From positions 1-64,000 of IMG/VR virus record IMGVR_UViG_3300027777_000001: 64,000 nt of DNA. One strand, 5' to 3'. Every line of letters begins with the position of its first letter. Position 1 is the stretch's first letter. Below are positions 4,862 to 57,748 of this stretch, piece by piece. The translations under genes and the position numbers were made by a program. Source of the stretch: a virus. A model generated the notes under the pieces. That model saw nothing but the letters and a program-made list of their open reading frames with translations. It made no database searches and was not told the DNA's origin.

Positions 4862-4903
4862 TAACTGGCATTATAAGTATTAATAATTGTTAGTTTAAAG
4901 ATA

Positions 4904-4959
4904 ATCCCTATACAGTATAAAATAGTAATAATTAAAAACTATTCTGTATAGGGATATTA
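4904..4959 (+). promoter_or_regulatory. Inverted repeat enclosing the vRNAP ribosome-binding site
   Basis: Twelve bases at 4904-4915 (ATCCCTATACAG) are perfectly complementary to 4944-4955 (CTGTATAGGGAT). A second nested pair ATAGT/ACTAT (4922-4926 and 4938-4942) closes an AT-rich loop. The 3' arm contains the only Shine-Dalgarno candidate, AGGGA at 4950-4954, five bases before the vRNAP ATG at 4960. As RNA this hairpin would hide the ribosome site. An operator or late promoter element is an alternative reading. Confidence 0.65.
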
Positions 4960-32585: not shown

Positions 32586-34870
32586 TGACGCATCCTTTAT
32601 TCTTGGCTGATGATGGTGATACAGGGTACAAACTTGCACGCTCGCTTAGGACGAGGGCGAGTGCGTCTGCGTATTTAAATCGGACATTTGGTACGCCAAC
32701 CAATCAAGCAAAATGGACATGGAGTGCTTGGGTCAAACTTGGGCAATTAGGTTCGTCTCAGGTTTTATTAAGTGGTAATACAGGTTCGACAGACACTACT
32801 ACGTTTTATATGGCGTATGGTTCGGGCGGCAATTTATTTTTAAATGGTTCATCAACATCGTTTCGTCAAAGCAGTGCCGTTTACCGCGACCCTTCATCGT
32901 GGTATCACGTTGTTTTAGCTGTTGATACAACGCAAGCTACAGAAGCCAATAAATTATTGTTATGGATTAACGGTGTTGCTCAAACCTATGCTGCAACAAG
33001 TGCAATTACTACTTGCGGTTTAAACGCAAATGGTGCGACTGCAACTATTGGAAAATACTCGGCAGCAAGCAGCTCATACTTTGATGGCTACATCACCGAA
33101 GTCAACTTCATCGACGGTCAAGCCCTAACCCCCTCATCATTCGGCTCAACCAACGCTCTCACAGGCGTATGGCAACCCGCACCCTATACGGGAACGTATG
33201 GAACCAATGGCACCCATCTTGAGTTCAAAGACAATAGCTCGCTGACTACATCATCGAATGTAGGCTTGGGTAAAGACACTAGTGGCAATGGCAATTACTG
33301 GACTACAAATAACATCAGCATCACGGCTGGTGTGACGTATGACTCCATGCTCGATGTGCCTACGCTGACGAGTGCGAGTGCGAGTAATTTTTGTGTATTT
33401 AACCCGCTAGATAAAGGCAGCGCACTTACTGTTTCAAACGGTAATTTGTCTATAACGGGTAGTGCTTCAAACAACAGTATGGGAAAGAGTAGTTTTTGGG
33501 TTACTTCAGGAAAATGGTATTGGGAATCTACTGCTACCGCAGGAAGCCTTGGAGCAGTAGTTGGAATCGGAGGATTAACTTTTTCTCAAATTCCTTGGTC
33601 TGGTGATATGTATGGCTATGATGCAAACGGAAACAAAATTGTTAACGGAACATCATCTGCATACGGATCGACTTACGCAGTCAATGACGTTATTGGGGTA
33701 GCTTTAGATTTAACCGCTGGAACTATTACATTTTATAAAAACAATGTATCGCAAGGTGCTATTACAGGCGTGTCAACTTCTTTACTCTGGACTCCATTTA
33801 ATCATGCAAATAACGGAGTTACGGTTCATTGGAATATGGGTCAACGCCCTTTCACCTACACACCACCGTCAGGCTTCCTATCTTTAAACTCGTTTAATTT
33901 ACCTGATGCTGCCATCGTCAAGGGCAGCGATAGCATGAGCATCGCACTCGCTTCAGGTGCGACTATCAAAGCTACGACTGAAGCCCTGTACACAGGACAG
34001 TTTCTAGAGTGGATTAAAGACAGAGCAAACGCTAATAACCATCAGCTACTAGATGGTGTCAGAGGTTTATCCGCTGTCTTGCAATCCAATACCACGGCTG
34101 CTGAAACAACGTACACAGCACCATCAGGAAGCTCTGTAGGCTTCGCATGGAAAGCAGGGGCATCAGCGGTATCAAACACCAACGGCTCAATCACATCGAC
34201 TGTGAGCGTTAATGCGTCTGCGGGGTTTAGTGTTATAACTTTTAACGGCACAGGCGCAGCAGCTACGGTTGGGCATGGGTTGGGTGTTGCACCTGCGTTC
34301 TACATTGCTAAGTACCGTAGCGGTTCTGCACCAAACATTGCAGGGTGGGCTTGTTACCATAGCGCATTAACATCTGCCGCTTACCGTATTGATTTAAATT
34401 CAACAAGCGGTCAGATTAGCGACACCAACGCTTTTAACAGCACAGCCCCCACATCATCCGTATTAAGTATTGGTACAAACTTGTCGGTTAGCAGTACGCC
34501 AATGGTTGCCTACTGCTGGACACCCATAGCCGGATACTCAGCGTTTGGTAGCTACACGGGTAATGGATCGGCTGACGGTGCTTTTATATATTTAGGATTT
34601 AGACCAAAGTTTGTGATGATTAAGGCAGCAACTGCCGTATCCGGTGGTGATTGGGTGTTAATTGACACTGCTAGAAACCCCAACAACGTAGCTGTTAATT
34701 GGCAATTCCCAAATGCTTCGACAGCCGAATCAAACTATGTGAACGTAGCTGACATACTTTCCAACGGTTTCAAAATTAGAGCTACTTGGGACACAATTAA
34801 CGCACCTGGTGCGACATACATCTACATGGCGTTCGCAGAAAATCCCCTGAAGCACTCCCTCGCACGTTAA
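32585..34870 (+). CDS. Tail fibre with LamG-like and SPRY-like domains
   Basis: A 761-residue protein. Residues about 30-215 form a concanavalin/LamG-like domain (TWSAWVKLGQLGSSQVLLSG, SSYFDGYITEVNFIDGQALT). Residues about 300-425 are SPRY-like (SGKWYWESTATAGSLGAVVG, NDVIGVALDLTAGTITFYKN). The C-terminal 280 residues resemble the DUF7483-type region common in aquatic phage fibres (FLEWIKDRANANNHQLLDGV, VVGHGLGVAPAF-like GHGLGVAPAFYIAKY). It probably binds surface carbohydrate. The start overlaps the preceding stop. The region about 32760-33060 is noticeably richer in AT than its flanks. Confidence 0.75.
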   Translation: MTHPLFLADDGDTGYKLARSLRTRASASAYLNRTFGTPTNQAKWTWSAWVKLGQLGSSQVLLSGNTGSTDTTTFYMAYGSGGNLFLNGSSTSFRQSSAVYRDPSSWYHVVLAVDTTQATEANKLLLWINGVAQTYAATSAITTCGLNANGATATIGKYSAASSSYFDGYITEVNFIDGQALTPSSFGSTNALTGVWQPAPYTGTYGTNGTHLEFKDNSSLTTSSNVGLGKDTSGNGNYWTTNNISITAGVTYDSMLDVPTLTSASASNFCVFNPLDKGSALTVSNGNLSITGSASNNSMGKSSFWVTSGKWYWESTATAGSLGAVVGIGGLTFSQIPWSGDMYGYDANGNKIVNGTSSAYGSTYAVNDVIGVALDLTAGTITFYKNNVSQGAITGVSTSLLWTPFNHANNGVTVHWNMGQRPFTYTPPSGFLSLNSFNLPDAAIVKGSDSMSIALASGATIKATTEALYTGQFLEWIKDRANANNHQLLDGVRGLSAVLQSNTTAAETTYTAPSGSSVGFAWKAGASAVSNTNGSITSTVSVNASAGFSVITFNGTGAAATVGHGLGVAPAFYIAKYRSGSAPNIAGWACYHSALTSAAYRIDLNSTSGQISDTNAFNSTAPTSSVLSIGTNLSVSSTPMVAYCWTPIAGYSAFGSYTGNGSADGAFIYLGFRPKFVMIKAATAVSGGDWVLIDTARNPNNVAVNWQFPNASTAESNYVNVADILSNGFKIRATWDTINAPGATYIYMAFAENPLKHSLAR

Positions 34871-34880
34871 GGAAAAACAA

Positions 34881-35390
34881 ATGTTCGCAATTATTAAAGA
34901 CAACGCTATCGCCCTTTTAGTACCCGCTGGCACAGCCTTCACATGGAACGATATTTCTTATCCTTCAAATTGGCTAAACCTGTCTAGCCCCGAAGAGAAA
35001 GCAAACATCGGCATGGTCGATGTAATCCATGAAGCTCGCCCTGATGATCGCTACTACTGGATCACAGAGGCTTCCCCTGCGCTTGTAGATGGAGTCGTGA
35101 GGATTGGGTACACCTCTTCACCTAAAGAGCTTGTAGGGCTTCAGAAGCAGCTTACAGACGCTATTGATGAGAAGATTTATCTCACCCTTAAAACGAGTGA
35201 CTACATCATGGTTCGTAACTTCCAAGACGCTACCTATAAACCAGAGTGGATTGTGTGGCGTGATTCAGTCTTGAGTACAGGACGCACAGCTAAAGATGAA
35301 ATCGCAGCAGCTACAACAGTAGAAGCGCTGATCGCTGTGGCTTGGGTGATTCCGAATAATCCTGATTATGTAGGGGCAGCTAATGTTTAA
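34881..35390 (+). CDS. Tail fibre-associated / assembly protein
   Basis: A 169-residue protein following the fibre gene by 10 bases. The N-terminal region (MFAIIKDNAIALLVPAGTAF) and its C-terminal helical part (ATTVEALIAVAWVIPNNPDYV, DEIAAATTVEAL) resemble small phage proteins encoded after fibres, some of which carry a DUF4376-like tail chaperone domain. Either a fibre chaperone or a tip protein. It overlaps the next gene by 8 bases. Confidence 0.55.
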   Translation: MFAIIKDNAIALLVPAGTAFTWNDISYPSNWLNLSSPEEKANIGMVDVIHEARPDDRYYWITEASPALVDGVVRIGYTSSPKELVGLQKQLTDAIDEKIYLTLKTSDYIMVRNFQDATYKPEWIVWRDSVLSTGRTAKDEIAAATTVEALIAVAWVIPNNPDYVGAANV

Positions 35391-36003
35391 GTCAACGGTA
35401 CTCTGGTTTGTGAAGTCGGTAGCCTTGATCGTGCTGACTATTCTGGCTTATCCCTTGGCTTATATCTTCGCCCTCTTCATCGTGAAAGAAGAAGAGAGTG
35501 AAGTGACAGGCTTTCCCGCGCTTCATGTTGGTATGCCAAGAGATTTCCTAATCCCTAGCCTTCGTATCTGGCAGACCCCTGACGCACCTGTGGATGAATT
35601 ATGGTACGCACAGGACTATGACGTATGGCCTGTTAAAGGTAAGACTCAGGCTGATTATGATTCATCTGCTTGGCTTCGTTACCTATGCCGTGTGACTTGG
35701 CTACAACGTAATGCAGCCTACGGATTTGGCTCAGCATGGGGTTATGACGTTACTGGAATGGTGCCTGTAACTACTCACGATAATGAAGCCAAGTGGAGAA
35801 CAGGTAATAACTGTTTTAGTTACTGGACGGTTATCAATGCTGCAGGGGACAAAGCATGGTGCATTCGTGCTCAGCTTTATTACTGGAAGCCTCATTGCTT
35901 GGAAATCTATCTTGGTTACAAGATCCAAGGTGACACCATGGGTGGCAAGAAGTTGGTAGCGATTCAGTTCACTCCGTTTCGTTCTTATCCAGTGACAGCT
36001 TAA
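35383..36003 (+). CDS. Conserved phage protein with N-terminal membrane segment
   Basis: A 206-residue protein with one transmembrane segment near the N-terminus (SVALIVLTILAYPLAYIFALFI cut short here at residues about 10-31) followed by a Trp/Tyr-rich domain (WLRYLCRVTWLQRNAAYGFG, GNNCFSYWTV, YYWKPHCLEIYLG). Proteins with the LQRNAAYGFG motif occur in many tailed phages (DUF7338-like, from memory); the function is not known. It is encoded between the fibre and pre-lysis genes. Confidence 0.6.
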   Translation: MFKSTVLWFVKSVALIVLTILAYPLAYIFALFIVKEEESEVTGFPALHVGMPRDFLIPSLRIWQTPDAPVDELWYAQDYDVWPVKGKTQADYDSSAWLRYLCRVTWLQRNAAYGFGSAWGYDVTGMVPVTTHDNEAKWRTGNNCFSYWTVINAAGDKAWCIRAQLYYWKPHCLEIYLGYKIQGDTMGGKKLVAIQFTPFRSYPVTA

Positions 36004-36016
36004 CTAGGAGATCAAT

Positions 36017-36379
36017 ATGATCGGCAAGCTAATCGGTATCTTGTTTCTAAGTCGTGAGCTTGCTCATCGTATGCATTTGGCTACCAAGTCATATGCTCAG
36101 CATATGGCTTTAGATGGATTCTATAACGCTATCGTAGAGAACGCTGACAGCATCACAGAGGCTTACCAAGGCCGACATGGAATCATTGATAACATTCCCT
36201 TGCTTAAGGATGAAAGCGTTTACAAGGAGCCTTGCGATATGTTACGCAAGCATCTCTCTTGGTTTGAGAAGATTCGTTATGAGGCTGTCGAGAAATCAGA
36301 TAGCCCAATCCAGAACCTAATTGATGAAGCAGTGCACACTTACCTAGTTGCTTTATATAAGTTAGAAAACTTGAAGTAA
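36017..36379 (+). CDS. Small helical protein, DUF5856/ferritin-like fold candidate
   Basis: A 120-residue all-helical protein with the pattern of the phage DUF5856 family: ATKSYAQHMALDGFYNAIVENADSI-type helix with His and Glu residues (AQHMALDGFY, ENADSITEAYQGRHG). These proteins resemble Dps/ferritin-like helical bundles. Whether it binds metal is uncertain. It starts with GGAG 10 bases upstream of ATG 36017 and ends a transcription unit or precedes a promoter. Confidence 0.5.
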   Translation: MIGKLIGILFLSRELAHRMHLATKSYAQHMALDGFYNAIVENADSITEAYQGRHGIIDNIPLLKDESVYKEPCDMLRKHLSWFEKIRYEAVEKSDSPIQNLIDEAVHTYLVALYKLENLK

Positions 36380-36390
36380 TCCGCACTATC

Positions 36391-36430
36391 CCCAAGACAC
36401 GCTTGACACTTGGGAACCAGTAAAGATATT
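36391..36430 (+). promoter_or_regulatory. Candidate sigma70-type promoter before the MPE-lysis cassette
   Basis: In the 109-base gap before 36489: TTGACA at 36403-36408 matches the -35 consensus, with GATATT at 36425-36430 as a poor -10 after 16 bases. The -35 lies in the loop of CCCAAG/CTTGGG (36391-36396, 36409-36414). The exact -35 match is suggestive, but the -10 is weak. Confidence 0.35.
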
Positions 36431-36488
36431 GCACGGAATCACAGAGATGGTCTGAGGCTTCCCAAGATGCAATTCTTACTGGAACCAT

Positions 36489-36755
36489 ATGAAATTCAAA
36501 ACTCCCCAAATTGTTTTAATTGAGTGGACAGATGCTGCCCATGAATTTGGTTGGATGGAAGGTAACGATGTCAATCCAGTTGATATTGATCTGACTTGTT
36601 TATCTGTAGGTTGGGTCTTGGCTAAGACCCCTAAGTACATTAAGTTATGCCAAACATATTCTGGCGATAACCACGCACAAACAATCGTCATTCCCCGAGC
36701 CATGGTAAAGAACATTACCTCAATGAAAAAAGAGGGAGTTCACCATGTTAAGTAA
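36489..36755 (+). CDS. Small hypothetical protein
   Basis: An 88-residue protein beginning with a beta-strand and an aromatic motif (IVLIEWTDAAHEFGWMEG). Its pattern (strand, WTDA, SVGWVLAKTPKYIKLC, IVIPRAMVKNI) resembles small phage proteins with a VGxLLxETDxxI-type barrel that I have seen annotated only as hypothetical. It overlaps the metallophosphoesterase start by 11 bases, so both are co-translated. Confidence 0.6.
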   Translation: MKFKTPQIVLIEWTDAAHEFGWMEGNDVNPVDIDLTCLSVGWVLAKTPKYIKLCQTYSGDNHAQTIVIPRAMVKNITSMKKEGVHHVK

Positions 36756-37701
36756 GACTATGAAGTTACCCGTCAGTGATGAGATCTTCCTTGAAGCTTG
36801 GCAACGTCTGGGTAGCTCAGATCTTGTAGCGACTGAGCTAGGGGTAGGAAGACGCTCTGTTCAACGTAGAAAGAAAACCATGGAAGCTATTTATCCAGAG
36901 GCTCCTCGGGTTCAGACCCCTACTGTTCCTCACTTCTATCGTCGTGAGCATAATGCTCGAACAGACTGCACGTTAGAGAATGGAATCATTATTGTAGGAA
37001 GTGATGTTCATAAATGGCCGGGCCCGAATACAGTGGCTCAACAGGCATTCATAAACGTCATTGCTGAGTTACGTCCCCAGATGGTTGTCATCAATGGTGA
37101 TCTCTTTGATGGAGCTGGTGTATCACGCTGGCCTAAGTCTTCATTCGGACACAAGCTTCCAACGGTCAAAGAAGAGCTTGATGCAGTCCACAAGTATCTC
37201 TCTGAGATCGAAGCTGTAGCTCGGGGAGCTAAGCGTTGGTGGACGATAGGCAACCATGATATGCGGTTTGAATCCAGACTGGCTAACTTGGTGCCTGAGT
37301 TTGAGGGAGTCCCTGGATTCTCTTTACAAGAACAGTTCCCTCTCTGGCCTATGTCTATGTCGATGATGGTCAACGACAACGTGATGATCAAGCATCGCTT
37401 CAGGAACGGTCTTCATGCCACCTATAACAACACCTTGGTTTCAGGTAAGAACATCGTCACGGGGCATTTACACCGTCTCCAAGCCACGGTCTTTACGGAC
37501 TATGACGGAAGTAGGTGGGGTATCGATACAGGCACTCTAGGGGACACAGATGGCCCTCAGATGAGCTATGGCGAAGATAATCCTGCCAATCATTGTTCTG
37601 GTTTCGCAGTATTAACAATCGTGAATGGCAAGTTGATCCACCCTGAGTTCTGTGCAGTCCAAGGTGATCGGGCATTCTTCAGGGGCAAGGATGTGACATG
37701 A
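36745..37701 (+). CDS. Calcineurin-like metallophosphoesterase with N-terminal HTH
   Basis: A 318-residue protein. Residues about 5-45 read as a helix-turn-helix (DEIFLEAWQRLGSSDLVATE, GVGRRSVQRRKKTME). The rest carries the metallophosphoesterase motifs in order: GSDVHKWPG (D-x-H), NGDLFDG (GDxxD-like), IGNHDMRFE (GNHD), then a His in MIKHRF and TGHLHRLQ (GH-x-H). It is therefore a two-metal phosphatase or nuclease; the substrate is unknown. Similar genes occur before lysis cassettes in several phages. The stop overlaps the next ATG. Confidence 0.82.
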   Translation: MLSKTMKLPVSDEIFLEAWQRLGSSDLVATELGVGRRSVQRRKKTMEAIYPEAPRVQTPTVPHFYRREHNARTDCTLENGIIIVGSDVHKWPGPNTVAQQAFINVIAELRPQMVVINGDLFDGAGVSRWPKSSFGHKLPTVKEELDAVHKYLSEIEAVARGAKRWWTIGNHDMRFESRLANLVPEFEGVPGFSLQEQFPLWPMSMSMMVNDNVMIKHRFRNGLHATYNNTLVSGKNIVTGHLHRLQATVFTDYDGSRWGIDTGTLGDTDGPQMSYGEDNPANHCSGFAVLTIVNGKLIHPEFCAVQGDRAFFRGKDVT

Positions 37702-38024
37702 ATGATTCCTTTAATTTTCACGAAATAGGAGTCATCAAGATCATCAGCGGAGTGGTTGGCGCTCTTGTGTCTCTACGCTTCGTGCAAGGAACTTGGCTTG
37801 AGAAATCATTTATGGCATTAGGGGGAAGTTGCTTGTCTTACTTTGCAACCAGCCCTGTTGCAGCTTGGTTAGACATCAATAATACCGAGGGTCTGATTGG
37901 ATTCATCATCGGACTCTTTGGTATGTCTATCGTAGCTAAGGGCTATGAATTGATTCAAGTTGTGGATGCAAAGCAAGCCATGGGAATCTTCCTAGACTGG
38001 CTTGCTCGTAAATGGAGAGCGTAA
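37698..38024 (+). CDS. Membrane protein, holin candidate 1
   Basis: A 108-residue protein with three hydrophobic segments (VIKIISGVVGALVSLRFV, FMALGGSCLSYFATSPVAAW, GLIGFIIGLFGMSIVAKGY) and a basic C-terminus (LDWLARKWRA). It is coupled (ATGA) to the metallophosphoesterase gene and lies upstream of the spanin and endolysin genes, the usual place for a holin. Which of the three adjacent membrane proteins forms the lethal hole cannot be told from sequence. Confidence 0.65.
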   Translation: MNDSFNFHEIGVIKIISGVVGALVSLRFVQGTWLEKSFMALGGSCLSYFATSPVAAWLDINNTEGLIGFIIGLFGMSIVAKGYELIQVVDAKQAMGIFLDWLARKWRA

Positions 38025-38290
38025 TGGATGCTGTATTTATTATCGCTTTAATCATCACCTCAGCACTGACCTTTGCAGGTGTGCTAAGTAATTACTTAAA
38101 TGATTCCTTACTTCAAAGGATTGGCTTAAGTCTGATTGGCTTGGCTTCAACAGTAAGACTCTGGGATGTGATCCAAGAAGCTCAAGAGTTTGATCTTGAT
38201 CCAATCTCAGTGACCTTCCTTGTGGGTGTCGCAGTCTACGGACTTAGCACCATGGTTAAGTTAATTCGTAGACGCAGCATTGATGGATGA
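38024..38290 (+). CDS. Membrane protein, holin candidate 2
   Basis: About 88 residues from ATG 38024, which shares a base with the previous stop (TAATG) and has GGAGAG upstream; a start at 38012 would be less well placed. Three hydrophobic stretches (VFIIALIITSALTFAGVL, IGLSLIGLASTVRLW, TFLVGVAVYGLSTMVKL) and a charged end RRRSIDG. The overlaps on both sides show tight coupling. Either holin or antiholin. Confidence 0.6.
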   Translation: MDAVFIIALIITSALTFAGVLSNYLNDSLLQRIGLSLIGLASTVRLWDVIQEAQEFDLDPISVTFLVGVAVYGLSTMVKLIRRRSIDG

Positions 38291-38528
38291 CACAACAGAA
38301 GTGTTGCTTGATCCAGTCATTGAAGTGGATCGTTGGAAGAACAGACGCAAGATGTCTTGGTTAGCCATGATCGCTGGTTTGTTATTCCCGCTTCTCCTGT
38401 TTACTAACTCTCCCCACTTGGGAGTCATTGCAGGGCCCTTCTATGTTTTTGTGGGGCTCGTAGTCACAGCCTACATCGGTGGTGCAGTGATCGATGATAA
38501 ATGGAGTAGAGATAATGTTCGACATTAA
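38283..38528 (+). CDS. Membrane protein, holin/antiholin candidate 3
   Basis: An 81-residue protein from ATG 38283 with two transmembrane segments (WLAMIAGLLFPLLLF and VIAGPFYVFVGLVVTAYIGGAV) and an acidic N-terminus (DDTTEVLLDPVIEVDRW). It overlaps both neighbours. The charged N-terminus and two-TM form suggest a class II holin or its regulator; not decided. Confidence 0.6.
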   Translation: MDDTTEVLLDPVIEVDRWKNRRKMSWLAMIAGLLFPLLLFTNSPHLGVIAGPFYVFVGLVVTAYIGGAVIDDKWSRDNVRH

Positions 38529-39018
38529 GATTTTTATCATTGGCTGTGGGATTGCCTTTGTTTCCGGCACAACCCTATCTTGGTGGCTGACTGCCGACTA
38601 CAAGAATGCCAAGTTTGCAGAGACGATCTCCACCATTCGACTAGACGCTGCAGAAGCTGTACGTCTAGCAACGAATAAGGCTCGATCTATTGATGCAGAA
38701 AACTCCCGTATCGCAACCGAATTAGAGGTGGCTCATAATGAATTTAGACAGAATCTTGATACCGTTAAAGCTGACAATGCTCGTCTTGTTAGTGAGCTTG
38801 GGGGCTTGTACGACAGTCACGCCGCCGCAAGTAATAGCAACGTGCCCAGTTCCACCACCCCCTCCAGCAGCGCTCCTGTCGCCCCCACCACAGGCAAACT
38901 TTCAAGAGAACTTACGCAGCTACTTCTTTCCGAATCAGCAAGGGCAGACGAAGCTGCAGCCTACGCCCGTACCTGCTACGACTTTTTCCAAGTAAGGAAG
39001 AACAATGTACCTAACTAA
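38515..39018 (+). CDS. Rz-like inner-membrane spanin
   Basis: A 167-residue protein from ATG 38515 (GGAG 8-10 bases upstream). The N-terminal signal-anchor (IFIIGCGIAFVSGTTLSWWL) is followed by a long periplasmic helix with heptads (DAAEAVRLATNKARSIDAEN, EVAHNEFRQNLDTVKADN) as in i-spanins, and a Ser/Pro linker. It contains the Rz1 gene in another frame. With Rz1 it would fuse inner and outer membranes at lysis, implying a Gram-negative host. Confidence 0.85.
   Translation: MFDIKIFIIGCGIAFVSGTTLSWWLTADYKNAKFAETISTIRLDAAEAVRLATNKARSIDAENSRIATELEVAHNEFRQNLDTVKADNARLVSELGGLYDSHAAASNSNVPSSTTPSSSAPVAPTTGKLSRELTQLLLSESARADEAAAYARTCYDFFQVRKNNVPN
38738..38995 (+). CDS. Rz1-like outer-membrane spanin lipoprotein, nested in Rz
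   Basis: An 85-residue protein wholly inside the Rz gene in the +1 frame, as in lambda. It has a signal peptide with lipobox (LVSLGAC-T, Cys about residue 24), and the mature part is very rich in proline (CPVPPPPPAALLSPPP), the classical Rz1 composition. The nesting and the lipobox together make the call firm. Confidence 0.88.
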   Translation: MNLDRILIPLKLTMLVLLVSLGACTTVTPPQVIATCPVPPPPPAALLSPPPQANFQENLRSYFFPNQQGQTKLQPTPVPATTFSK

Positions 39019-39622
39019 AGAAATGTTAGTAGCAGCAGATCTATGTAGCACAGCCAATGCAGCCTTGTATGAAGCTCCACTCAATAACGTGTGTACTCGT
39101 TATGAGATCAATACTCCGTTAAGAATGGCAGGGTTCTTGTCTCAAATTGCACATGAATCTGGAGGCTTTACAGCTACGGTAGAAAACCTCTATTACCAAG
39201 CCTCAGCATTGAACCGGAGCTGGCCTCAGTTATTCCCTGGGGATGTGGCTCAACAGTACGCCATGCAGCCTGAGAGGATTGCAAATAGAGCTTACGGGAA
39301 CCGTATGGGTAACGGAGACGAAGCCAGTGGGGAGGGGTGGTTGTACAGAGGTCGGGGTCTTATTCAGCTGACTGGCAAAAATCAGTATCTCAATTTTGCT
39401 ATGTCTGAGGATGTAGATACCTTGGTTCATCCTGAACTAGTCGAGCTTCCAGAGTTGGCTGCAATGTCTGCAGGATGGTTCTGGCACACCAATGACTTGA
39501 ATACTCTGGCTGATTTGGGCTATGTAGAAGCCATGACCAGACGTATTAATGGAGGATTGAATGGGCTGGCTGATCGCCAAGCTAAGTACAACGCAGTCTT
39601 AAAAGTCTTAGCTTGGGAGTAG
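39005..39622 (+). CDS. Endolysin, glycoside hydrolase family 19
   Basis: A 205-residue muramidase/chitinase-like lysin. Motifs: FLSQIAHESGGFTATVENLYY (catalytic Glu in AHESGGF), YRGRGLIQLTGKNQY (the GRGxxQLTG signature of GH19) and AAMSAGWFWHTNDLNTLAD. There is no signal peptide, so it needs a holin to cross the membrane. It overlaps the end of Rz by 14 bases. Confidence 0.92.
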   Translation: MYLTKEMLVAADLCSTANAALYEAPLNNVCTRYEINTPLRMAGFLSQIAHESGGFTATVENLYYQASALNRSWPQLFPGDVAQQYAMQPERIANRAYGNRMGNGDEASGEGWLYRGRGLIQLTGKNQYLNFAMSEDVDTLVHPELVELPELAAMSAGWFWHTNDLNTLADLGYVEAMTRRINGGLNGLADRQAKYNAVLKVLAWE

Positions 39623-39626
39623 AACC

Positions 39627-39908
39627 ATGAAGATCTTGTTTGGATTACTGGTATTGCTTGGTTTAAATGTCTCAGCAGAGACGCTAGATAAGCCCGTACG
39701 GTGTGCATCCCTTGAGACCGTACAAGAGAAGATGAAAGAGTTTGGTGAGAGCGTACTCTGGACATCCCCAAGTGTCCTTGAGGAGTCTGATTACGCTTTC
39801 TACGGTAACCGTGAGACAGGCTCATGGTCACTGGTTCAGATCATTCATGGGATCGGTTGCTTGGTAGCTTTCGGTGAAGCAGGTAAGCAAGTCCGAGCAG
39901 GATCTTGA
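39627..39908 (+). CDS. Small exported protein at the end of the lysis operon
   Basis: A 93-residue protein with a clear signal peptide (KILFGLLVLLGLNVSAET, probable cleavage after SAE or VSA) and a mature domain with two cysteines (VRCASLE and IGCLVAF), probably disulfide-bonded in the periplasm. It lies between the endolysin and the attachment site, where temperate phages often carry lysogenic-conversion or superinfection-exclusion genes. Function unknown. Confidence 0.6.
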   Translation: MKILFGLLVLLGLNVSAETLDKPVRCASLETVQEKMKEFGESVLWTSPSVLEESDYAFYGNRETGSWSLVQIIHGIGCLVAFGEAGKQVRAGS

Positions 39909-39913
39909 TTAGT

Positions 39914-39947
39914 CTGTGTGAATTGCGTGTGAATCCTGTGTGAATTC
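39914..39947. repeat. Direct repeats left of the attachment core (candidate integrase arm sites)
   Basis: Three tandem copies of CTGTGTGAATT: 39914-39924 exact, 39925-39935 with changes (GCGTGTGAATC), 39936-39946 exact, followed by TCACAC that makes a partial inverted copy. Matching copies lie on the other side of the tmRNA-like core. Paired direct repeats flanking a core next to int are typical of arm-type integrase sites. Confidence 0.6.
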
Positions 39948-39987
39948 ACACACCGCTTGGTACCGTTTAGTGGGGGTAGAAAAGAAA

Positions 39988-40019
39988 AACCGCTGTGCCT
40001 TCAAGGGGCTACAGCGGTT
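39988..40019 (-). terminator. Terminator of the integrase transcript
   Basis: AACCGCTGT (39988-39996) pairs with ACAGCGGTT (40011-40019), extended by GCC/GGC inside. Read leftward, the stem is followed by TTTTCTTTT, the form of an intrinsic terminator. It sits in the attachment region downstream of int. Confidence 0.65.
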
Positions 40020-40034
40020 AAAAGCGGTTTGTAA

Positions 40035-40060
40035 TGGTGGAGCCGGGGGGAATTGAACCC
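40035..40060 (-). other. Candidate attP core: tmRNA 3'-end identity segment
   Basis: On the - strand this reads as a T-loop and acceptor end finishing in CCA: GGGTTCAATTCCC then CCCGGCTCCACCA. GGCTCCACCA is the usual proteobacterial tmRNA (ssrA) terminus. Only the 3' part is present (the left side of the T-stem does not pair fully and there is no tRNA body), as expected for an attP that restores ssrA upon integration. The int gene is 87 bases away and the core is flanked by repeats. Confidence 0.75.
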
Positions 40061-40108
40061 TGCGGTGATTTACCTGTTTATGCGGGTCTCGAGCCAGTAA
40101 AACCTAAT

Positions 40109-40131
40109 CTGTGTGAATTCTGTGTGAATTC
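40109..40131. repeat. Direct repeats right of the attachment core
   Basis: Two tandem copies of CTGTGTGAATTC at 40109-40120 and 40120-40131 (sharing one base), the same unit and orientation as the repeats at 39914-39947. Together they flank the tmRNA-like core at about 70-120 bases on either side. Confidence 0.6.
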
Positions 40132-40146
40132 ATTTTGAGAAGGGTT

Positions 40147-41364
40147 TTACGCCTCATTTCCATAGGCACTAGGCAAGGATTTCTGAAAGTTCTTGGGTAT
40201 CCATTTGCCATATCTCTTGAACACCATCTCGGCATCCACATGACCCATCTGCTGAGCCAACCAGAAAGGGTTAGCACCATTGGTCAGTAAAGTCGATGCG
40301 TAAGTATGCCTGATTTGGTAGAGGTTACGGTAGCGGATCTTAGAGCGTTCAAACAAAGGTTCCCAAAAGGTACGAACGATCTGCTGTTCTCGAGCCCATG
40401 GTTGACCGGATCGAGGGTTCATCCAGACTCTGCCATTGTCCTCATGCTCAAGCTCTTGTTGCTGAGCCAGTGCCTCAATCGCTGAGACATTCAGATCAAT
40501 CTCGCGGGCTCCTGAAGAGGTCTTAGGAGCTTTCTCAAACTGTCCCACCACATCCCCACGCCTGCCTGTGACCTCGTTGGTCGAGATCCTGACAAGCTTC
40601 TTATCCATGTCGATTGACTCCCAACGCAGAGCAATAAACTCTCCTGGTCGCAATCCTGTGGCAAACCAGAACTGAAGGGTAGAGCGTTCGTCTGACCGAC
40701 AAGCTTTAAGTAAAGCTGCAACCTCTTCATGGTCAAAGGGTTCAATGGCTCCACGTTTGGACTTGGTGCTGGTCTGGCTAAGTAGCTTCTTGAGTGCAAC
40801 ATTATCCAATGGATTGGATTCAATCAAGTCATCGTTCAGAGCATCCTCTAGTGCTGATCGAAGTGGGGTAAGCCTGTTCCTTACGGTCTTGGCAGTTACC
40901 CCAAGCCCAGCAATCCATGTTCTTAATACAGGTGCTGTCAGTTCGTTGATCGGTAGCTTGTCAAAAGCAGGGATCAAGATCGAGTTAATGATCTTGTAAT
41001 AGCCCTGATATGACGAAGGTGACAACGTATCGTTCTCAGTCTGCTTGTCATAGATCCCAAGCTGAGCCCTAAGTAAATCACCAATGGTTCGTTTGTGGAT
41101 AACCTTGACTACACCCTTAGTGACCTTGGGTGAGTCAGGGAAATACTTAGCGTATTCAAACGTACCATCAGCAATCTTTCGACGGATTTCACTTCTCAAA
41201 CTAGCTGCATAATCAATGTTTGTTTTATTGATCTTGCAGACTGGTAATAACTCACGACATTGCTGACTCTCGAAACTGAACGCAATCTGAATGCGTTGAA
41301 TCTCTCGGTCAGTCCTTATTGCTATGCCAACTGGCGTTTCAGGGGAACCTGACTCTCGACCCAT
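40147..41364 (-). CDS. int: Tyrosine recombinase integrase
   Basis: A 405-residue phage integrase. N-terminal arm-binding region (about 1-90, DUF3596-like: RIQIAFSFESQQCRELL), SAM-like core-binding region (about 95-190, SSYQGYYKIINSILIPAF), and a catalytic domain with RPGEFIALRW (first Arg), a Lys in the beta-hairpin region (GQFEKAPKTSSG), H-x-x-R as QIRHTYAS, and a final MGHVDAEMVFKRYGKW containing the Tyr nucleophile. All the key residues are visible, so it is probably active. ATG 41364 has GAGG 8 bases upstream and overlaps the excisionase-like gene. It ends beside the attP candidate. Confidence 0.93.
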   Translation of the reverse strand: MGRESGSPETPVGIAIRTDREIQRIQIAFSFESQQCRELLPVCKINKTNIDYAASLRSEIRRKIADGTFEYAKYFPDSPKVTKGVVKVIHKRTIGDLLRAQLGIYDKQTENDTLSPSSYQGYYKIINSILIPAFDKLPINELTAPVLRTWIAGLGVTAKTVRNRLTPLRSALEDALNDDLIESNPLDNVALKKLLSQTSTKSKRGAIEPFDHEEVAALLKACRSDERSTLQFWFATGLRPGEFIALRWESIDMDKKLVRISTNEVTGRRGDVVGQFEKAPKTSSGAREIDLNVSAIEALAQQQELEHEDNGRVWMNPRSGQPWAREQQIVRTFWEPLFERSKIRYRNLYQIRHTYASTLLTNGANPFWLAQQMGHVDAEMVFKRYGKWIPKNFQKSLPSAYGNEA

Positions 41365-41525
41365 TTCTCAACCTCGGTGGGATTAATCCAAATGCTACCT
41401 TCGCGTTTGACCCACTGTACTCCTTCTGTCCATTTACGGTTTCTACGCCTTGCTCGGACAGCCTCGGAGGTATCTCCTGAGAGATCACAATACTTATTGA
41501 TCTTGACCCATTTCATTGCAAGCAT
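41322..41525 (-). CDS. Excisionase-like small DNA-binding protein
   Basis: A 67-residue basic protein just upstream of and overlapping int by 43 bases. The layout WVKINKYCDLSGDTSEAVRA, RRRNRKWTEGVQWVKREG, IWINPTEVEKWVES is that of a winged/MerR-like excisionase of the type that has an HTH followed by a W-x-x-G-x-x-W wing. Its position and size support a role as recombination directionality factor. An activator of int is an alternative. Confidence 0.72.
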   Translation of the reverse strand: MLAMKWVKINKYCDLSGDTSEAVRARRRNRKWTEGVQWVKREGSIWINPTEVEKWVESQVPLKRQLA

Positions 41526-41527
41526 GG

Positions 41528-41833
41528 TTATTTTCCTCGAGTGTTAGGGTTGGTACTTGAGTTAGGGTTCTGGTTTGAGTTGGTGTCAGGAGTCGTACTT
41601 GACCCTTTAGGTGCAGCAGGCTTGGCACCATCAGCAGGGGTAATGATTGAGATACCTTTGCCAGTGTTGTTGTAGATCATGCTGGAGGTATTGTCATCGT
41701 TGATGATGAGGGAGTTCTCACCCATGGGTAAGACCATCCCACTCTTGCCCGTACGTTCATCGAAGAAGAACTGGGCTTGAACCATTGATGATGCACCAAG
41801 GCTCAAAAGTATCATTAATAGAACACGTTTCAT
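41528..41833 (-). CDS. Small exported protein
   Basis: A 101-residue protein with a signal peptide (KRVLLMILLSLGASSMVQAQ, cleavage after VQA or AQA-like site) and a mature part that ends in a low-complexity Asn/Pro/Ser/Thr tail (TPDTNSNQNPNSSTNPNT). Periplasmic or surface location is predicted. It lies directly upstream of the excisionase-like gene. Function unknown. Confidence 0.6.
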   Translation of the reverse strand: MKRVLLMILLSLGASSMVQAQFFFDERTGKSGMVLPMGENSLIINDDNTSSMIYNNTGKGISIITPADGAKPAAPKGSSTTPDTNSNQNPNSSTNPNTRGK

Positions 41834-41839
41834 TTTTAA

Positions 41840-42085
41840 CTACCTTGAAAGATTAGACAGACGCACAGCTGCACGGTGAATCCGAGCATTGAACCAGCGT
41901 CTGATTGCGTATGATCTAGCGACTGAGATCACGGTGTAGATACCTCCCATCAATAGGTTGTCAGAAAGACTGATATGCATATTGAAGAGAGGGAAGATCA
42001 AAAGATTGGCCACATAATTAATACTGAAACCAATGGCTACGTTGATCCAAGCCTCGATAAAGCTTCCCGTCTTAGTCTGAGACAT
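41840..42085 (-). CDS. Two-helix membrane protein (DUF7220-like)
   Basis: About 81 residues from ATG 42085 (MSQTKTGSFIEAWIN), with GGGAG six bases upstream. Two hydrophobic segments (VAIGFSINYVANLLIFPLF, NLLMGGIYTVISVARSYAI) and a basic end (RRWFNARIHR). Many phages and prophages encode proteins of this exact design (QTKxGSxxEAxxNxxIGFxxN), so it is a conserved small phage membrane protein of unknown role. It overlaps the end of the upstream gene. Confidence 0.7.
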   Translation of the reverse strand: MSQTKTGSFIEAWINVAIGFSINYVANLLIFPLFNMHISLSDNLLMGGIYTVISVARSYAIRRWFNARIHRAAVRLSNLSR

Positions 42086-42476
42086 TGAATACTCCCTTAG
42101 GACGATCATCCCCTTCGGGATAGAACTTTTCATAATGAGCCAACATCATCACATTGCACATCATGTGTGCTGTGTGAGGTAAGCCAGACTCAGGATCTAA
42201 GTGCTCACCATTTTGCCAAGCAGTTAGATGACGTTGAAGTGAGTCGTACGGGACAGACCAATCTGCACCCTTAGCCCAGTTCCAAGCAGCGTACTTCTTG
42301 GCTCCGTATTCCCAGACCCGAGCTGTGTCCTCGAGCAGGCTCATGGGGATGAGATGAAACTTAGGCTTACCGAAGTTGTACCTAGCGCCTGATCCTTTGG
42401 CTGTGCTCGTTACGTCACCTATACCGGAACCGTGCTTCGCATTGATGTTCACAATGCCACCGTTAATGGTACTCAT
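42072..42476 (-). CDS. dATP/dGTP diphosphohydrolase-like protein (DUF5664)
   Basis: A 134-residue protein with the conserved features of the phage DUF5664 family: GARYNFGKPKFHLIPMSLLE, RVWEYGAKKYAAWNWAKG, SLQRHLTAWQNGEHLDPESG and LPHTAHMMCNVMML. The His/Glu/Asp residues in the last three suggest a metal-dependent HD-like or MazG-like nucleotide hydrolase. Family members are annotated as dATP/dGTP diphosphohydrolases and can shape the dNTP pool. I see no PurZ gene in the window. Confidence 0.78.
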   Translation of the reverse strand: MSTINGGIVNINAKHGSGIGDVTSTAKGSGARYNFGKPKFHLIPMSLLEDTARVWEYGAKKYAAWNWAKGADWSVPYDSLQRHLTAWQNGEHLDPESGLPHTAHMMCNVMMLAHYEKFYPEGDDRPKGVFNVSD

Positions 42477-46373: not shown

Positions 46374-48989
46374 TCAGACCAACTTATGCTCCGCCTTAGC
46401 CGCATCACAGAGCTCTCGAATGCCATCTTCGCTTGCTCCGTTAGGTAAGGTGACAGCATGAGCCCAAGAGGGCCAGTACAGGTCTAACGCTGCGCCTAGC
46501 TTGACCGTGTCATGTAAGAGCTCGGGAAGCTCTTGCCATTGCATCGATTTAATCAATTCCGTATTCGCCCAATGCACAGTTTCGGCTACATCACGAACTA
46601 GGATGTAGATAGCATCATGTATCATGGCTGTCGGTTTGATATCCAGACGATATTTAGAAGCCCAGACCTTCTGCATGAAGTCCACAGCAGCACGGTTATT
46701 CAATAAGCCATAACTCTGACCCATTGCATTACCCGCTGTGCGTCCCTCGGCCTGTGCCTCAAAAGGAATGTGAGTACTACCAAAGATCACTTGTTTAAGA
46801 AGTGGGGTACGTACTCTTAATCCAAAAGCAACTTCTACAAATCCATCTTTACTGGCTTGTTCAAGACGGGCTTGAATAAAGTCATCACTGGCTTTGTATA
46901 ACGTGTGATACCCAGCTTCGATATCTTTGGCTTTGGCTTCAGAGAAACCAAGGCTATTAACCAAGGTTCTCCAAGTGCCTTGATAAGACAATGCAAAGGT
47001 AGCAGTCTTGGATTCTTGACGAAACTCAGGATAGAGTTTCTTCATAGAATTGATTGACGCTACCGTATCCACAATGTCAGGGCACAAGTCTTTGAAGTAC
47101 GAATACGCTCTTAGACAGTGACCATCGTAGCCATCGGTATAGACCTTTAGCTTGTTTGGATCCTTGGTGGTAAGCGCAGACACATAATCCTCGAGAGAAT
47201 TAAAGTCAGCCCCTGCAAGAATCCAACCAGGTGGAGCTTGGAAACATTCCTTTACAGACTTACCAAAGGTAGAGTTTGCAGGTAGATTTTGCATATTCGG
47301 GTCTGAGCTCGATAACCTACCAGACACAGTGCCACCAAGATTGAAGCTGCCATGTAGATACCGCATCCCATCGTCTTTAACCAAGCCTCTTTCAAAGGCA
47401 GGGATAAAGGTAGACAGGATCTTAGTGACTTTCCCGTAGCCAATGATGGCTTCAAGGAGAGTCTTATAAGAAGGTATCTGTGTATGGTTCAGTAGCTTCT
47501 CAATGGTGTCAGCACCCGTAGATGGTTGCTTAGTCTCAGTCAGATCAATCACAGGTAAACGCATTTGCTCGTACAGCAAGACCTGCAGCTGAGGGTTGCT
47601 GTTAGGGTTGAACGCCACATCACTGTACTTGGACAATGGATGTTGCTTGGTCTTCAACTTAGCGTTAGCAGCTTGCATCACACTGGTTTGATGGATTAGG
47701 TTGAAAGCCTTAATCAAACCATTGTTATCAAAGACCGCTAAGTGCTTAGCCTGTTCAGCCAGCAGATCAGCTTTGACATCGATGATCGCTTGCTCAGACA
47801 TAGGCATCCCTGTGAGCTCCATCTGAATAATGAGCTTCAGACTTGGTAGCATCAAAGACTTGTACAGTTCCTCTTGGTTATCAGCTTGCATGATTGGGTA
47901 ATACTTAGCCAACACATAGTTCGTAGACAACGCATCCACCAAGTTGTATTGCAAGAGCTCAGGTAAAGGGATACGGGTGATATCTTTGATATCTTCCTTA
48001 GCCCAATTCCCTGCATACCCATGCGCCAAGGATTTCAATCCAAGCACATTACCTGCAGTAGAGTTGGTTGCAAGATAAGCCACGATCTTCGTATCATTGA
48101 AGTGTCGGGTCATAATATCTAACCCAACCAGCAAGCCTTCCGTATCCAGAGGATTCTTCATCCAAAGGGTATAAATCAGAACCTTCAAATCGTAGGTTGC
48201 ATTGTGCCAAGTGATGGTGCCTTTGTATTCGGTAAAGAACTCCTTGAGTAATCGTTTAACAGAGGGATTGTTCCAATACTCTCCGAAGCCTTGCTCTGAT
48301 GCAGCACGGACTCCAAAGTTAATATAATCACAAGCAAAGGCTATGCCATTATGTTGATCCCAAGCAAAGGCAATGGTACCAATCCCAGCCTCGTTAAATC
48401 GAAGCGAGAAGGCCTCGATGTCACAGGACAGGGATTCGTATGAGTGCAGGTGTTGCAGAGCGCTGGAGATAGCTTGGAGGGTCTCAGGGTACTGTGCAGA
48501 GTGAATGATTCCATGGCCCAACGCGACATAGGAATTATCCATGGCTGAGGCCAAGGTCGACAGACTCAGATTTAGTTTCCCAATTAAGGCTGGGTTATAA
48601 ATCAGAGCCTGATGGTTCAATCCAAGCACGACCATGAAATGTTCGTAGCCCGGATATTTACAAGGTAAGACATAGCCAAAATGTGGCTCAGTCTTGCCAA
48701 GTTTTGTGAGGATCTTAAAGTACGTGGGTTCAGCCACATAGAGGATCTTCACACCTAACCCATCGAGGACAGGCAAGAGTTGTTCAAGATAGTCTCTGGC
48801 TAACTTGTTCGGAATCGTTTTAGTCTGACCCGTTTTAAGTGTGAAAGCGATGAGTCTATTTGACGCTATCTTGGCTGCATTCAATGGCTGCACATAATTA
48901 ACCAACAGTTCATGCTGATTAAAGTTTGTATCTTTGATGAGTAAAGCAGTCTGATAAGAGGGCGCACTATCAAAGATGAAATGTCGCAT
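46374..48989 (-). CDS. DNA polymerase I family (family A) replicative polymerase
   Basis: An 871-residue polymerase, like N4 gp39. The 3'-5' exonuclease domain has SCDIEAFSLRF (about residue 188) and TWHNATYDLKVL (about 261). The polymerase domain has RLSSSDPNMQNLP, motif A AGADFNSLEDY (about 594), motif B RQESKTATFALSYQG (about 661) and motif C AMIHDAIYI (about 791). In motif A, Asn-Ser-Leu-Glu follows the Asp-Phe. It would replicate the phage DNA with the helicase encoded two genes downstream in the 49.5 kb region. Confidence 0.92.
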   Translation of the reverse strand: MRHFIFDSAPSYQTALLIKDTNFNQHELLVNYVQPLNAAKIASNRLIAFTLKTGQTKTIPNKLARDYLEQLLPVLDGLGVKILYVAEPTYFKILTKLGKTEPHFGYVLPCKYPGYEHFMVVLGLNHQALIYNPALIGKLNLSLSTLASAMDNSYVALGHGIIHSAQYPETLQAISSALQHLHSYESLSCDIEAFSLRFNEAGIGTIAFAWDQHNGIAFACDYINFGVRAASEQGFGEYWNNPSVKRLLKEFFTEYKGTITWHNATYDLKVLIYTLWMKNPLDTEGLLVGLDIMTRHFNDTKIVAYLATNSTAGNVLGLKSLAHGYAGNWAKEDIKDITRIPLPELLQYNLVDALSTNYVLAKYYPIMQADNQEELYKSLMLPSLKLIIQMELTGMPMSEQAIIDVKADLLAEQAKHLAVFDNNGLIKAFNLIHQTSVMQAANAKLKTKQHPLSKYSDVAFNPNSNPQLQVLLYEQMRLPVIDLTETKQPSTGADTIEKLLNHTQIPSYKTLLEAIIGYGKVTKILSTFIPAFERGLVKDDGMRYLHGSFNLGGTVSGRLSSSDPNMQNLPANSTFGKSVKECFQAPPGWILAGADFNSLEDYVSALTTKDPNKLKVYTDGYDGHCLRAYSYFKDLCPDIVDTVASINSMKKLYPEFRQESKTATFALSYQGTWRTLVNSLGFSEAKAKDIEAGYHTLYKASDDFIQARLEQASKDGFVEVAFGLRVRTPLLKQVIFGSTHIPFEAQAEGRTAGNAMGQSYGLLNNRAAVDFMQKVWASKYRLDIKPTAMIHDAIYILVRDVAETVHWANTELIKSMQWQELPELLHDTVKLGAALDLYWPSWAHAVTLPNGASEDGIRELCDAAKAEHKLV

Positions 48990-55040: not shown

Positions 55041-55472
55041 TTAGTGCTGTGTTTCAAGATGGATCTGCTCCGGTGTTGATTCAGCAGGCAAGCCTTCTTG
55101 AACACGTTGAGCTTTGATCTGCTCGATGATCTTGGCAATCCCACTGGAATAGAACAAGCCAGCCAATTGACCTGAGGTGCAACTGTTTAGATACTCTTGG
55201 ACATTTGCAGGGGTTAAGGCAGGCGTTGAGAGGGCTCTGGCAAGGCCTTCTGGCTCCAAGCTGTATTCATCCACGATAGCCATGAAAGACCGGATACGGT
55301 CTGTTATACGGTTCACAGGAGGTGGTGAGATTCCAGCCTCTACGAGCACACGGTTGACAGTCCGTTTAGAGGTCTTAAACTTTTCTGCGAGCTCGGTTTG
55401 GTTGAATATATCAGCCCGAAACCAGTCGGCAAGGAGTTGCTTTTCAGCAAGGGAAATACACTTTACGGTCAT
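55041..55472 (-). CDS. Helix-turn-helix DNA-binding protein
   Basis: A 143-residue protein. Residues about 6-48 form a helix-turn-helix (SLAEKQLLADWFRADIFNQT then ELAEKFKTSKRTVNRVLVEA, a GntR/ParB/transposase-like HTH). The rest is helical and unassigned, with a proline-rich end. As the first gene downstream of the RNAP2 terminator it might be a middle-gene regulator. It is the most regulator-like gene in this part of the window, but I see no CI/Cro-type signature. Confidence 0.65.
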   Translation of the reverse strand: MTVKCISLAEKQLLADWFRADIFNQTELAEKFKTSKRTVNRVLVEAGISPPPVNRITDRIRSFMAIVDEYSLEPEGLARALSTPALTPANVQEYLNSCTSGQLAGLFYSSGIAKIIEQIKAQRVQEGLPAESTPEQIHLETQH

Positions 55473-55663: not shown

Positions 55664-56490
55664 TTATGACAAGGCATAGTTCCCTAGCCTGATGTGTACG
55701 CCTAGGTCTTTACTCTTCTTCATCCACTTTCCCTTGTAGCCAGTGATCTGGGTAAGAACATCGGACAAGATCTCACTCTCGGCTAGATCAGCCATCACGT
55801 AGATGTACTGTTGACGAAGATGGTTCAGGTTATTAGGGTGACACTTGAACTCATCATGGATCGTCACTAGAGGGAAGGGTGCATACATCTGCATCTGGTC
55901 GATGAGAGTAGACAACTTCTCTAAGTGTGCTGTGGATAACTGATCCACAGTCTTGGTTGTTAGATGAGGCAGGATCACCACATCAGCTAACTTGCTACGG
56001 TTGAACTGCTCGATGTAATACATTGTTTTACCTGACAAGGCAGGTGAGCTGAAGTTTGGATACATTCTTCGGACATCTAATGTGTCCTTGATTAGAGCCT
56101 GAGCATTGCTGACAACTACTGGATCGTAGTTACAACGCCTGTGCATAGCCCGTAATACGTAACCATCGATGCTATGTATACAATTCGCCGCCAGTGATAA
56201 TCCCTTCTTAGTCCCTACATTGTCATAGTAGGTATAGGTGAAGGTGGCATGATCTAACTCATCAACCTCGATGCGTGCATCGATCTTGTCCATGACTTTG
56301 ACCTTGGCATCATACCCATCGGGTAATTGCCAAGCGTGCTCCAAAGCCCATGGTTGCCATGATGCAAGCAGGTCTTGGAGAAGCTCCCAAGGCCCGGGTG
56401 CCACGATCTGAGCTGCCTGATAGAAGGCATCCAGTTCAGGACTATCCTCGCCAAATATGGCTTTGGGAGTCTTTTTACTACCGTAGAAAG
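55664..56490 (-). CDS. RNA polymerase subunit 2 (N4 RNAP2-like), exon 2
   Basis: The second exon of the small T7-like RNA polymerase subunit. It opens in motif B (CT TTC TAC GGT, giving S-F-Y-G-S-K after splicing), then the fingers/thumb region, LAANCIHSIDGYVLRAMHRR (the segment before motif C in T7 RNAP) and FPLVTIHDEFKCHPNN (motif C, His-Asp). Joined to exon 1 (57327-57738) it gives 413 codons, 412 residues, very near N4 gp16 (about 404). An ORF caller would start this part at GTG 56404, which is only an internal codon. Function: middle-gene transcription with RNAP1. Confidence 0.88.
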
Positions 56491-57326
56491 CAATGTGTTC
56501 AGGATAGTTCGTTAAGCTATCCCCGCTTTATTCAAGCTGCTATGTATTCCTACATAGATCAGACTATATCTTCACCCATCACTGGGGTTCTGCGCTTCCA
56601 CCCACTTGGGTGTACTCCCTTACGGGATAGTCGTTGCACCTTTTACAACAGCTTTACACATCTGGATAAATAGTTCTTCATCCAAATCGCCTTTTGCTCT
56701 ATTAACAGCCCATGCTACCCATTGAACATTACCCTGTGTGTACCCTAATTTAGGTTGCAGTTTGTCAATTGACAATCCAGCAGGGTGTTCTTTTTCAACG
56801 AATAGTGATTGGTTGGTGTATTTACACTTCCCATTTTGCTGTTTCCAGAGGTCAAGCATATATTCCATAGTGATATTAAATGGGCGTTCGTTTCGTTTGT
56901 TGTTGGTTTTTGCTGAAGATATCCTCTGGCAAATAGCAGAAACTAACTTACGTTCGTCCCCTTTATATGGTGCAAATCGGCCTGTGCCATCGTAGCCTTT
57001 ATGTTTAGCTCGCCATTCTCTAGCTTCTTTTGCTAGACACACACGACATTCTGGTTTGAAATCAGCAATGACGTTGGCGTTGAATTGTGAGCTGTTTTTA
57101 CTTTTGGCGGGGCCGTATGCATTTAAAGGTTTAATTTCATTACAGATCCGACAGGTTTTCATCGTATTCCTATAGGTAAAGTCATAGAAGTATTTTACGA
57201 TTATTTCTACGGAATAGCTATCATAACTTGGCTCAGGATTGTCCTTATTTTTCAATAGTGGGATGTTCCCTGAGTTCACAGAATTGCGTATTTCTAGTTG
57301 CCTAGAAAGTGACCCCTTTTATTCTA
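56491..57326 (-). ncRNA. Group I intron in motif B of the RNAP2 gene
   Basis: An 836-nt self-splicing intron candidate. The exon end TGACCT pairs with the internal guide GGGTCA shortly inside the intron, giving the usual U-G wobble at the 5' splice site after 57327. The 3' splice site is after G at 56491. Core sequences of group I introns are present in order: Q-like AATCCTGAGCCAAG (57228-57241), R TGCAACGACTA (56628-56638) and S AAGATATAGTCTGA (56559-56572), with P7 pairing GACTA/TAGTC. Splicing joins MT to SFYGSK, restoring the T7-like MTLAYGSK motif B. It encodes an HNH nuclease between Q and R. Confidence 0.9.
56620..57162 (-). CDS. Intron-encoded HNH homing endonuclease
   Basis: About 180 residues from ATG 57162 (KTCRICNEIKPLNAYGPAKS), with AGGAA six bases upstream; this start, unlike the longer frame from 57279, leaves the intron Q element free. 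Two zinc-binding CxxC pairs (CRICNEIKP and CRVCLAKE) precede an HNH-type core NGKCKYTNQSLF...GLSIDKLQPKLGYTQGNV, with QWVAWAVNRAKGDL after it. It would cut intronless copies of the RNAP2 gene so that the intron spreads. Its last codons (ACGACTATC) overlap the intron R element. Confidence 0.85.
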   Translation of the reverse strand: MKTCRICNEIKPLNAYGPAKSKNSSQFNANVIADFKPECRVCLAKEAREWRAKHKGYDGTGRFAPYKGDERKLVSAICQRISSAKTNNKRNERPFNITMEYMLDLWKQQNGKCKYTNQSLFVEKEHPAGLSIDKLQPKLGYTQGNVQWVAWAVNRAKGDLDEELFIQMCKAVVKGATTIP

Positions 57327-57738
57327 AGGTCATTAGACACTTCTTGGCATCTGCTCGAGGGATTGTGATGTTGCTCCCCAAGATGGCATTCATCGTATCT
57401 GTGGTCAGGGTGTATGCGTCTGCTCGGACATTGGGGTTCGTTAAGCCCGTAGACGCAGCACCCGCAGGGCATCCTGTGATAGCAGCCATGATCTGAATGC
57501 CTGAACATACAGCATCAAATCCAACCAAGTGTCCAGAGGGTTCCCCCCTCTGTGCTGCTCGGATAGCTTGGCAAGCCTTCATGTACAAAGGCTTCTTATC
57601 AGCCTGATCTACTAGGCTCTCTAAGATATCCAAGTTAGCCTCGGCCCATGTAATACGTTCCTCGAATAGAAGTTTGTCGATACCGAATTGGTTTGCGACA
57701 TCAATGAGTAAGTACTGCCAGCCTGTGAAGGTTTGCAT
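57327..57738 (-). CDS. RNA polymerase subunit 2 (N4 RNAP2-like), exon 1
   Basis: First exon, from ATG 57738 (MQTFTGWQYLLIDVANQFGI) preceded by AAAGG. It includes motif A, LVGFDAVCSGIQIMAAITGC, the equivalent of T7 FDGSCSGIQHFSA with the catalytic Asp, and ends in the start of motif B (RADAKKCLMT, Arg and Lys at the T7 R627/K631 positions). Without splicing the frame hits a stop 3 codons into the intron (CTTAGAATAA). RNAP1 lies upstream, separated by a 72-codon gene. A longer frame start at 57867 overlaps that small gene and is rejected. Confidence 0.88.
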
Positions 57739-57748
57739 GATTAGACCT

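Follow-up and report, generated by a model that had tools for sequence, protein, structure and literature searches.

An ssrA-targeted integration module in an N4-like phage genome

N4-like phages are widely regarded as strictly lytic, for example when phages are selected for therapy. The DNA analyzed here (the window) is a 64-kb stretch, part of a virus record of 74,079 bp, and one short segment of it raises the question of whether an N4-like phage can live as a prophage. A preliminary description of the window had recognized a complete tyrosine integrase, an excisionase-like gene and a 26-bp copy of a tmRNA 3' end within an N4-like core, and had suggested a temperate or pseudotemperate lineage. 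Its premise of a strictly lytic lifestyle among the relatives of N4 has been superseded, temperate N4-like viruses having been proposed in 2023 (PMC10654107). The questions addressed below are whether the module belongs to this genome, where it is aimed, and whether the N4-like phage itself uses it.

An N4-like genome with a resident module

The record is the complete genome of an N4-like (Schitoviridae-type) phage. Its hallmark is a giant virion RNA polymerase of 4011 amino acids (positions 4960–16995, plus strand; phrog_2206, 1526 bits), which is accompanied by the two subunits of the heterodimeric N4-like RNA polymerase, RNAP1 (57964–58872, minus strand; phrog_2166, E=8e-97) and an interrupted RNAP2 (55664–57867, minus strand; phrog_2051 in two pieces). 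An N4-type DNA polymerase (46374–48989, minus strand; phrog_17, E=2e-140) is also encoded, as are a primase, single-strand binding protein, tape measure protein and N4-type portal, terminase and major capsid proteins, so the N4-like core assigned in the preliminary description is well founded. Coliphage N4 and the lytic Schitoviridae isolates share the virion polymerase, RNAP1/RNAP2, DNA polymerase, portal and capsid with this phage; they differ in that the description of the family mentions no integrase (PMC7650795). The portal found here is less than 60% identical to that of every phage record searched and is 61–91% identical to those of the best 80 uncultivated contigs. The first 99 bases of the record are the same as the last 99, and the overlap lies inside a coding gene, indicating that the assembly closes as a circle. 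Circular closure hides the physical ends of the genome, the N4-like feature for comparison being a linear genome with direct terminal repeats.

The RNAP2 gene consists of two open reading frames arranged around an endonuclease VII-like gene (56620–57279), and a match to the group I intron family Intron_gpI, below the gathering cut-off, lies at 56540–56763 (E=3.5e-6). The N4 RNA polymerase gene is probably interrupted by a group I intron that encodes a homing endonuclease.

The preliminary description had itself named an assembly chimera, a prophage fragment joined to an N4-like genome, as the explanation that could undo its reading. Modules of this type are carried by other phages as well, which is the one point in favor of such an artifact. 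Another contig (L020) covers positions 34226–41777 at 99.9% identity and is contiguous across the module and into both sides. Two further contigs, L010 and L163, have the same module beside the same N4-like neighbors, with integrases 95% and 58% identical to this one; in L163 the flanks are as they are here, with genes matching 36489–38290 on one side and 41840–42476 on the other. The G+C content of the integrase gene (47.5%) departs from that of the genome by no more than about one standard deviation. A chimera is therefore rejected as extremely improbable, above all because L020 spans the module at near identity.

Integrase, excisionase and attachment site

The integrase gene (40147–41364, minus strand) encodes a protein of 405 amino acids with arm-binding, SAM-like core-binding and catalytic domains, recognized through Pfam (Arm-DNA-bind_2, E=5e-20; Phage_integrase, E=1.5e-17) and PHROG (E=7.5e-51). 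The catalytic set was placed by alignment to the solved integrases of entries such as 6en0. R239, K281, R352, H375 and Y385 are invariant in the 32 integrases compared, and the first histidine position of the R-K-H-R-H-Y set is a tyrosine, Tyr349, in all 32. These comparisons confirm an intact gene, in line with the complete integrase reported earlier. Its hexamer coding score falls within the range seen for the phage's other genes. Between this integrase and the 95%-identical one of L010, dN is 0.031 and dS is 0.53 (dN/dS about 0.06), which points to strong purifying selection.

Overlapping the start of the integrase gene is a gene for a 67-amino-acid excisionase-like protein, Xis (41322–41525, minus strand). 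This small predicted DNA-binding protein has matches to three excisionase families of PHROG, the best at E=2e-9, and, below the cut-off, to Pfam DUF1233. The two genes adjoin each other in related phages too, and the earlier call of an excisionase-like gene holds. Together they form the distal end of a leftward gene cluster.

The core of the attachment site, GGGTTCAATTCCCCCCGGCTCCACCA (40035–40060, minus strand), is the 26-bp 3' end of an ssrA (tmRNA) gene including its CCA. The copy of a tmRNA 3' end noted in the preliminary description is thereby confirmed; it occurs once in the genome and is identical to the ssrA ends of many Burkholderiales genomes among the matches listed. The probability that 74 kb contains a particular 26-mer by chance is of order 1e-11. 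The core region also gives a weak, partial match to RF00023.

Two kinds of element missed by the earlier reader, the arm repeats and a terminator, make this site a full attP. The integrase-side arm (40105–40132) has two direct repeats of TGTGTGAAT spaced 11 bp apart, and the far arm (39914–39952) has three direct repeats, TGTGTGAAT or CGTGTGAAT, with the same 11-bp spacing. In the forward direction, the two arms contain five copies of GTGTGAAT, and the same strand of the genome has just one more. This arrangement of two plus three repeats accompanies the N-terminal Arm-DNA-bind_2 domain of the integrase, as befits an arm-binding enzyme. Directly after the CCA of the core lies an intrinsic terminator (39978–40019, minus strand), with an RNA fold of -18.6 kcal/mol (z=-3.9) followed by TTTTTCTTTT. 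Along the tmRNA strand, the end of the integrase gene is followed by two ATTCACACAG repeats with 11-bp spacing, some 45 bp, the core, the hairpin, TTTTTCTTTT and three repeats of the ATTCACACAG motif, again 11 bp apart.

The layout of both arms is shared with related phages, and the repeat word differs from phage to phage: TTCGCACCGA in L163, ATCGACGAAA in L005 and ATAGCACCAG in L014. Within each phage both arms bear the same word, which is expected if the arms coevolve with the arm-binding domain of the integrase. A strong hairpin sits just after the core in all six phage-type sequences (five related sites and this phage), and a clear T run follows it in all except L163. Two of the six hairpin sequences have little in common with the others. 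We infer that the rebuilt tmRNA gene receives its new terminator from the phage; the same terminator would also end the integrase transcript. The module is real, resident in the N4-like genome, under selection and targeted to ssrA.

Evidence for integration at ssrA

In the proposed mechanism, the integrase would occupy the core together with the 11-bp arm repeats, and recombination would take place between the 26-bp phage core and the matching 3' end of the host ssrA. After integration the tmRNA gene would again be intact, with the phage terminator behind it, and the displaced ssrA end and the host terminator would come to lie at the far end, next to the integrase gene. Excision would be driven by Xis.

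This anatomy is seen in Bordetella-like prophages that carry the same type of Int/Xis pair. G060 contains a complete ssrA prophage of about 38 kb with an integrase 53% identical to this one at its end. At its ssrA end, the core, a phage-type terminator and three arm repeats follow in that order; the other end has the integrase gene, the integrase-side arm repeats, a second copy of the core and the host's own terminator. A 46-kb ssrA prophage in the G077 chromosome has the same anatomy, and the circular record NZ_CP132331.1 carries a joined attP of this kind. Across this set the integrases are 51–53% identical to the one studied here, and the core, the arm layout and the terminator after the core are shared. 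With both host–phage junctions present in G060 and G077, integration of related modules at ssrA is established at the level of sequence. The G060 and G077 elements differ from this phage in size (38–46 kb), and a search of the two genomes gave no close N4-like portal; as far as tested, they are not N4-like. Other backbones carry the module as well, one with RecE/Bet-type recombination genes (L005) and one with a lambda-J-like tail gene (L014). In the tree, a single clade unites the ssrA-type integrases from these phages, which together with the differing backbones indicates that the module is common to several types of temperate phages.

A junction much closer to this phage lies in a metagenome-assembled genome (MAG) of the Alcaligenaceae. 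Contig CANCOC010000040.1 (locus L089) opens with the final 74 codons of an integrase gene. At the protein level this stretch is 100% identical to this integrase and that of L010, except for the last residue, which is common to L010 only; it is 42–80% identical to all others. A 345-bp DNA match to this phage is 85% identical. The integrase tail is followed by two arm repeats, then by the core and then by host sequence, which is the far junction that the integration model predicts. The host sequence is 93% and 92% identical to the empty ssrA flanks of L048 and L050, respectively, and the host flank extends the core match by four bases (GTAA). Judged from its sequence, L089 contains a genuine att junction of the lineage to which this integrase belongs, and the hosts of the phage are likely Alcaligenaceae-type Burkholderiales. 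The ssrA-side junction and the remainder of the prophage were not found in the MAG, nor was the body of its ssrA gene, a tmRNA search of the MAG giving only sub-threshold matches; the ssrA-side junction pattern was likewise absent from 269 genomes of the MAG's family. The matches listed from the pattern scan of genome contigs for the core are a lower bound, and more junctions may exist.

Additional ssrA-associated sequences are present in this host group. In L089, 4.5 kb beyond the junction and past a toxin–antitoxin-like gene pair, a second phage-type left attP arm with its terminator (4850–4990) comes after a truncated ssrA end, with no phage genes following, and may be the scar of an earlier prophage event. 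In a Sheuella MAG (L110, 2679–3940), ssrA is followed by an insert of about 1.2 kb and then an ssrA-terminator flank, and the insert includes sequence common to the toxin–antitoxin-like region of L089. In these hosts ssrA appears to be a hotspot at which small islands insert.

Could the L089 junction have been left by a temperate phage that is not N4-like and happens to share this integrase, leaving the use of ssrA by the N4-like phage unproven? Only about 315 bp of the element was assembled, and L005 and L014 have the same kind of module. Against this, the 100% identity of the integrase tail is to two N4-like members, all other integrases being at most 80% identical, and such an origin is considered unlikely.

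Searches for an integrated N4-like genome add a further constraint. Portal searches of 20 records and genomes sharing the core or the integrase turned up no N4-like provirus, and those of 269 genomes from the MAG's family and 307 from the class turned up none that was complete and carried this module. A virion RNA polymerase search of 399 genomes of the order, run without a positive control, also returned no complete N4-like provirus. Otherwise, these searches gave distant portals and G953, a contig with N4-like structural genes and a portal of 38% identity that, at 29 kb, is too short for a provirus to be distinguished from a binned phage. The ssrA prophage search that the preliminary description had called for, with its attL and attR, has thus yielded the far junction in L089 and neither an N4-like provirus nor the ssrA-side junction.

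The lack of a complete provirus in the genomes searched would also fit a module that is a passenger in an obligately lytic phage, with an integrase that is active or decaying and that supports at most rare or abortive integration. No sigma-70 promoter match lies near the integrase gene, and no repressor was recognized. Such a passenger is nonetheless quite improbable, given the strong purifying selection on the integrase, the intact arms and Xis in several lineages and the host junction of the same integrase lineage in L089. It is highly probable instead that an N4-like phage acquired, and keeps under selection, a lambda-style ssrA integration module of a kind common in temperate phages of the Burkholderiales. 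We infer that the N4-like genome itself integrates at ssrA, and the module likely serves lysogeny of the N4-like phage. Of the lifestyle suggested earlier, the ssrA-directed module and the L089 junction speak for a temperate or pseudotemperate lineage; the N4-like provirus that would complete the picture was not found, and lysogeny is put forward as likely.

Possible lysogeny in N4-like phages

How would such a prophage be maintained? No CI-type repressor was recognized among the small proteins scanned, which agrees with the earlier description. The helix-turn-helix (HTH) protein at 55041–55472 (minus strand), put forward there as a candidate regulator, was rejected as a repressor, neither Pfam nor PHROG giving a match above cut-off; its only HTH match is a sub-threshold one in Pfam.

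The early genes of N4 are transcribed from hairpin promoters by an RNA polymerase injected with the virion. In the early region of this phage (59298–63337, minus strand), seven N4-type hairpins, GGCTACGCC or close to it, are each followed by TGTNATRGA or a close variant, at about 59303, 60939, 62310, 62491, 62811, 62984 and 63328. They are confined to the early region, and none is near the integrase gene. The template-strand hairpin loop is G-T-A, closed by C-G. Coliphage N4 likewise uses hairpin early promoters, and its virion polymerase requires the 5' G and 3' A of the loop and the closing pair (PMC4496689); these agree here, whereas the center of the loop is T rather than the purine of N4. 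Given that the virion carries this RNA polymerase into the cell, the default state of an integrated copy could be silence. A tentative suggestion, and one that may well prove wrong, is that the provirus needs no classical repressor and would return to lysis through renewed expression of the virion RNA polymerase. A small early gene (60368–60886, minus strand) matches a PHROG annotated as a toxin (E=6e-10).

Other N4-like viruses with integrases provide a wider setting. The 2023 proposal of temperate N4-like viruses described 54 genomes with lysogeny genes and 40 proviral regions, mainly in Moraxella; in its main text, neither a repressor nor an attachment or integration site is specified (PMC10654107). 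Those viruses resemble this one in combining an N4-like genome with an integrase and in having a temperate life deduced computationally. They differ in their link to Moraxella, whereas here the target is ssrA, a full attP is mapped and the link is to the Alcaligenaceae. In a nonrandom sample of 11 near-complete N4-like relatives picked by portal similarity, 6 carry an integrase. Two of these, G026 and G027, have the 3' half or the whole of a tRNA-Arg(ACG) gene about 0.9 kb beyond the integrase gene. Their integrases are of another type (L251, around 520–600 and 1477–2565; L253, 895–1986 and 2872–2948), and the tRNA-Arg copy in G026 is followed by a terminator-like hairpin. From these relatives, N4-like phages seem to have acquired integration modules of different kinds on several occasions.

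What is new here is the mapped attP, the ssrA target and the betaproteobacterial host link, together with the tRNA-Arg copies beside the integrases of two other N4-like relatives. The finding raises the question of how a prophage stays quiet when its early genes need an injected polymerase. With an exact attP/attB pair and a candidate host group in hand, lysogeny in the N4-like family becomes directly testable, and the existence of an N4-like branch with intact, selected integration modules changes how the lifestyle of N4-like phages is to be predicted.
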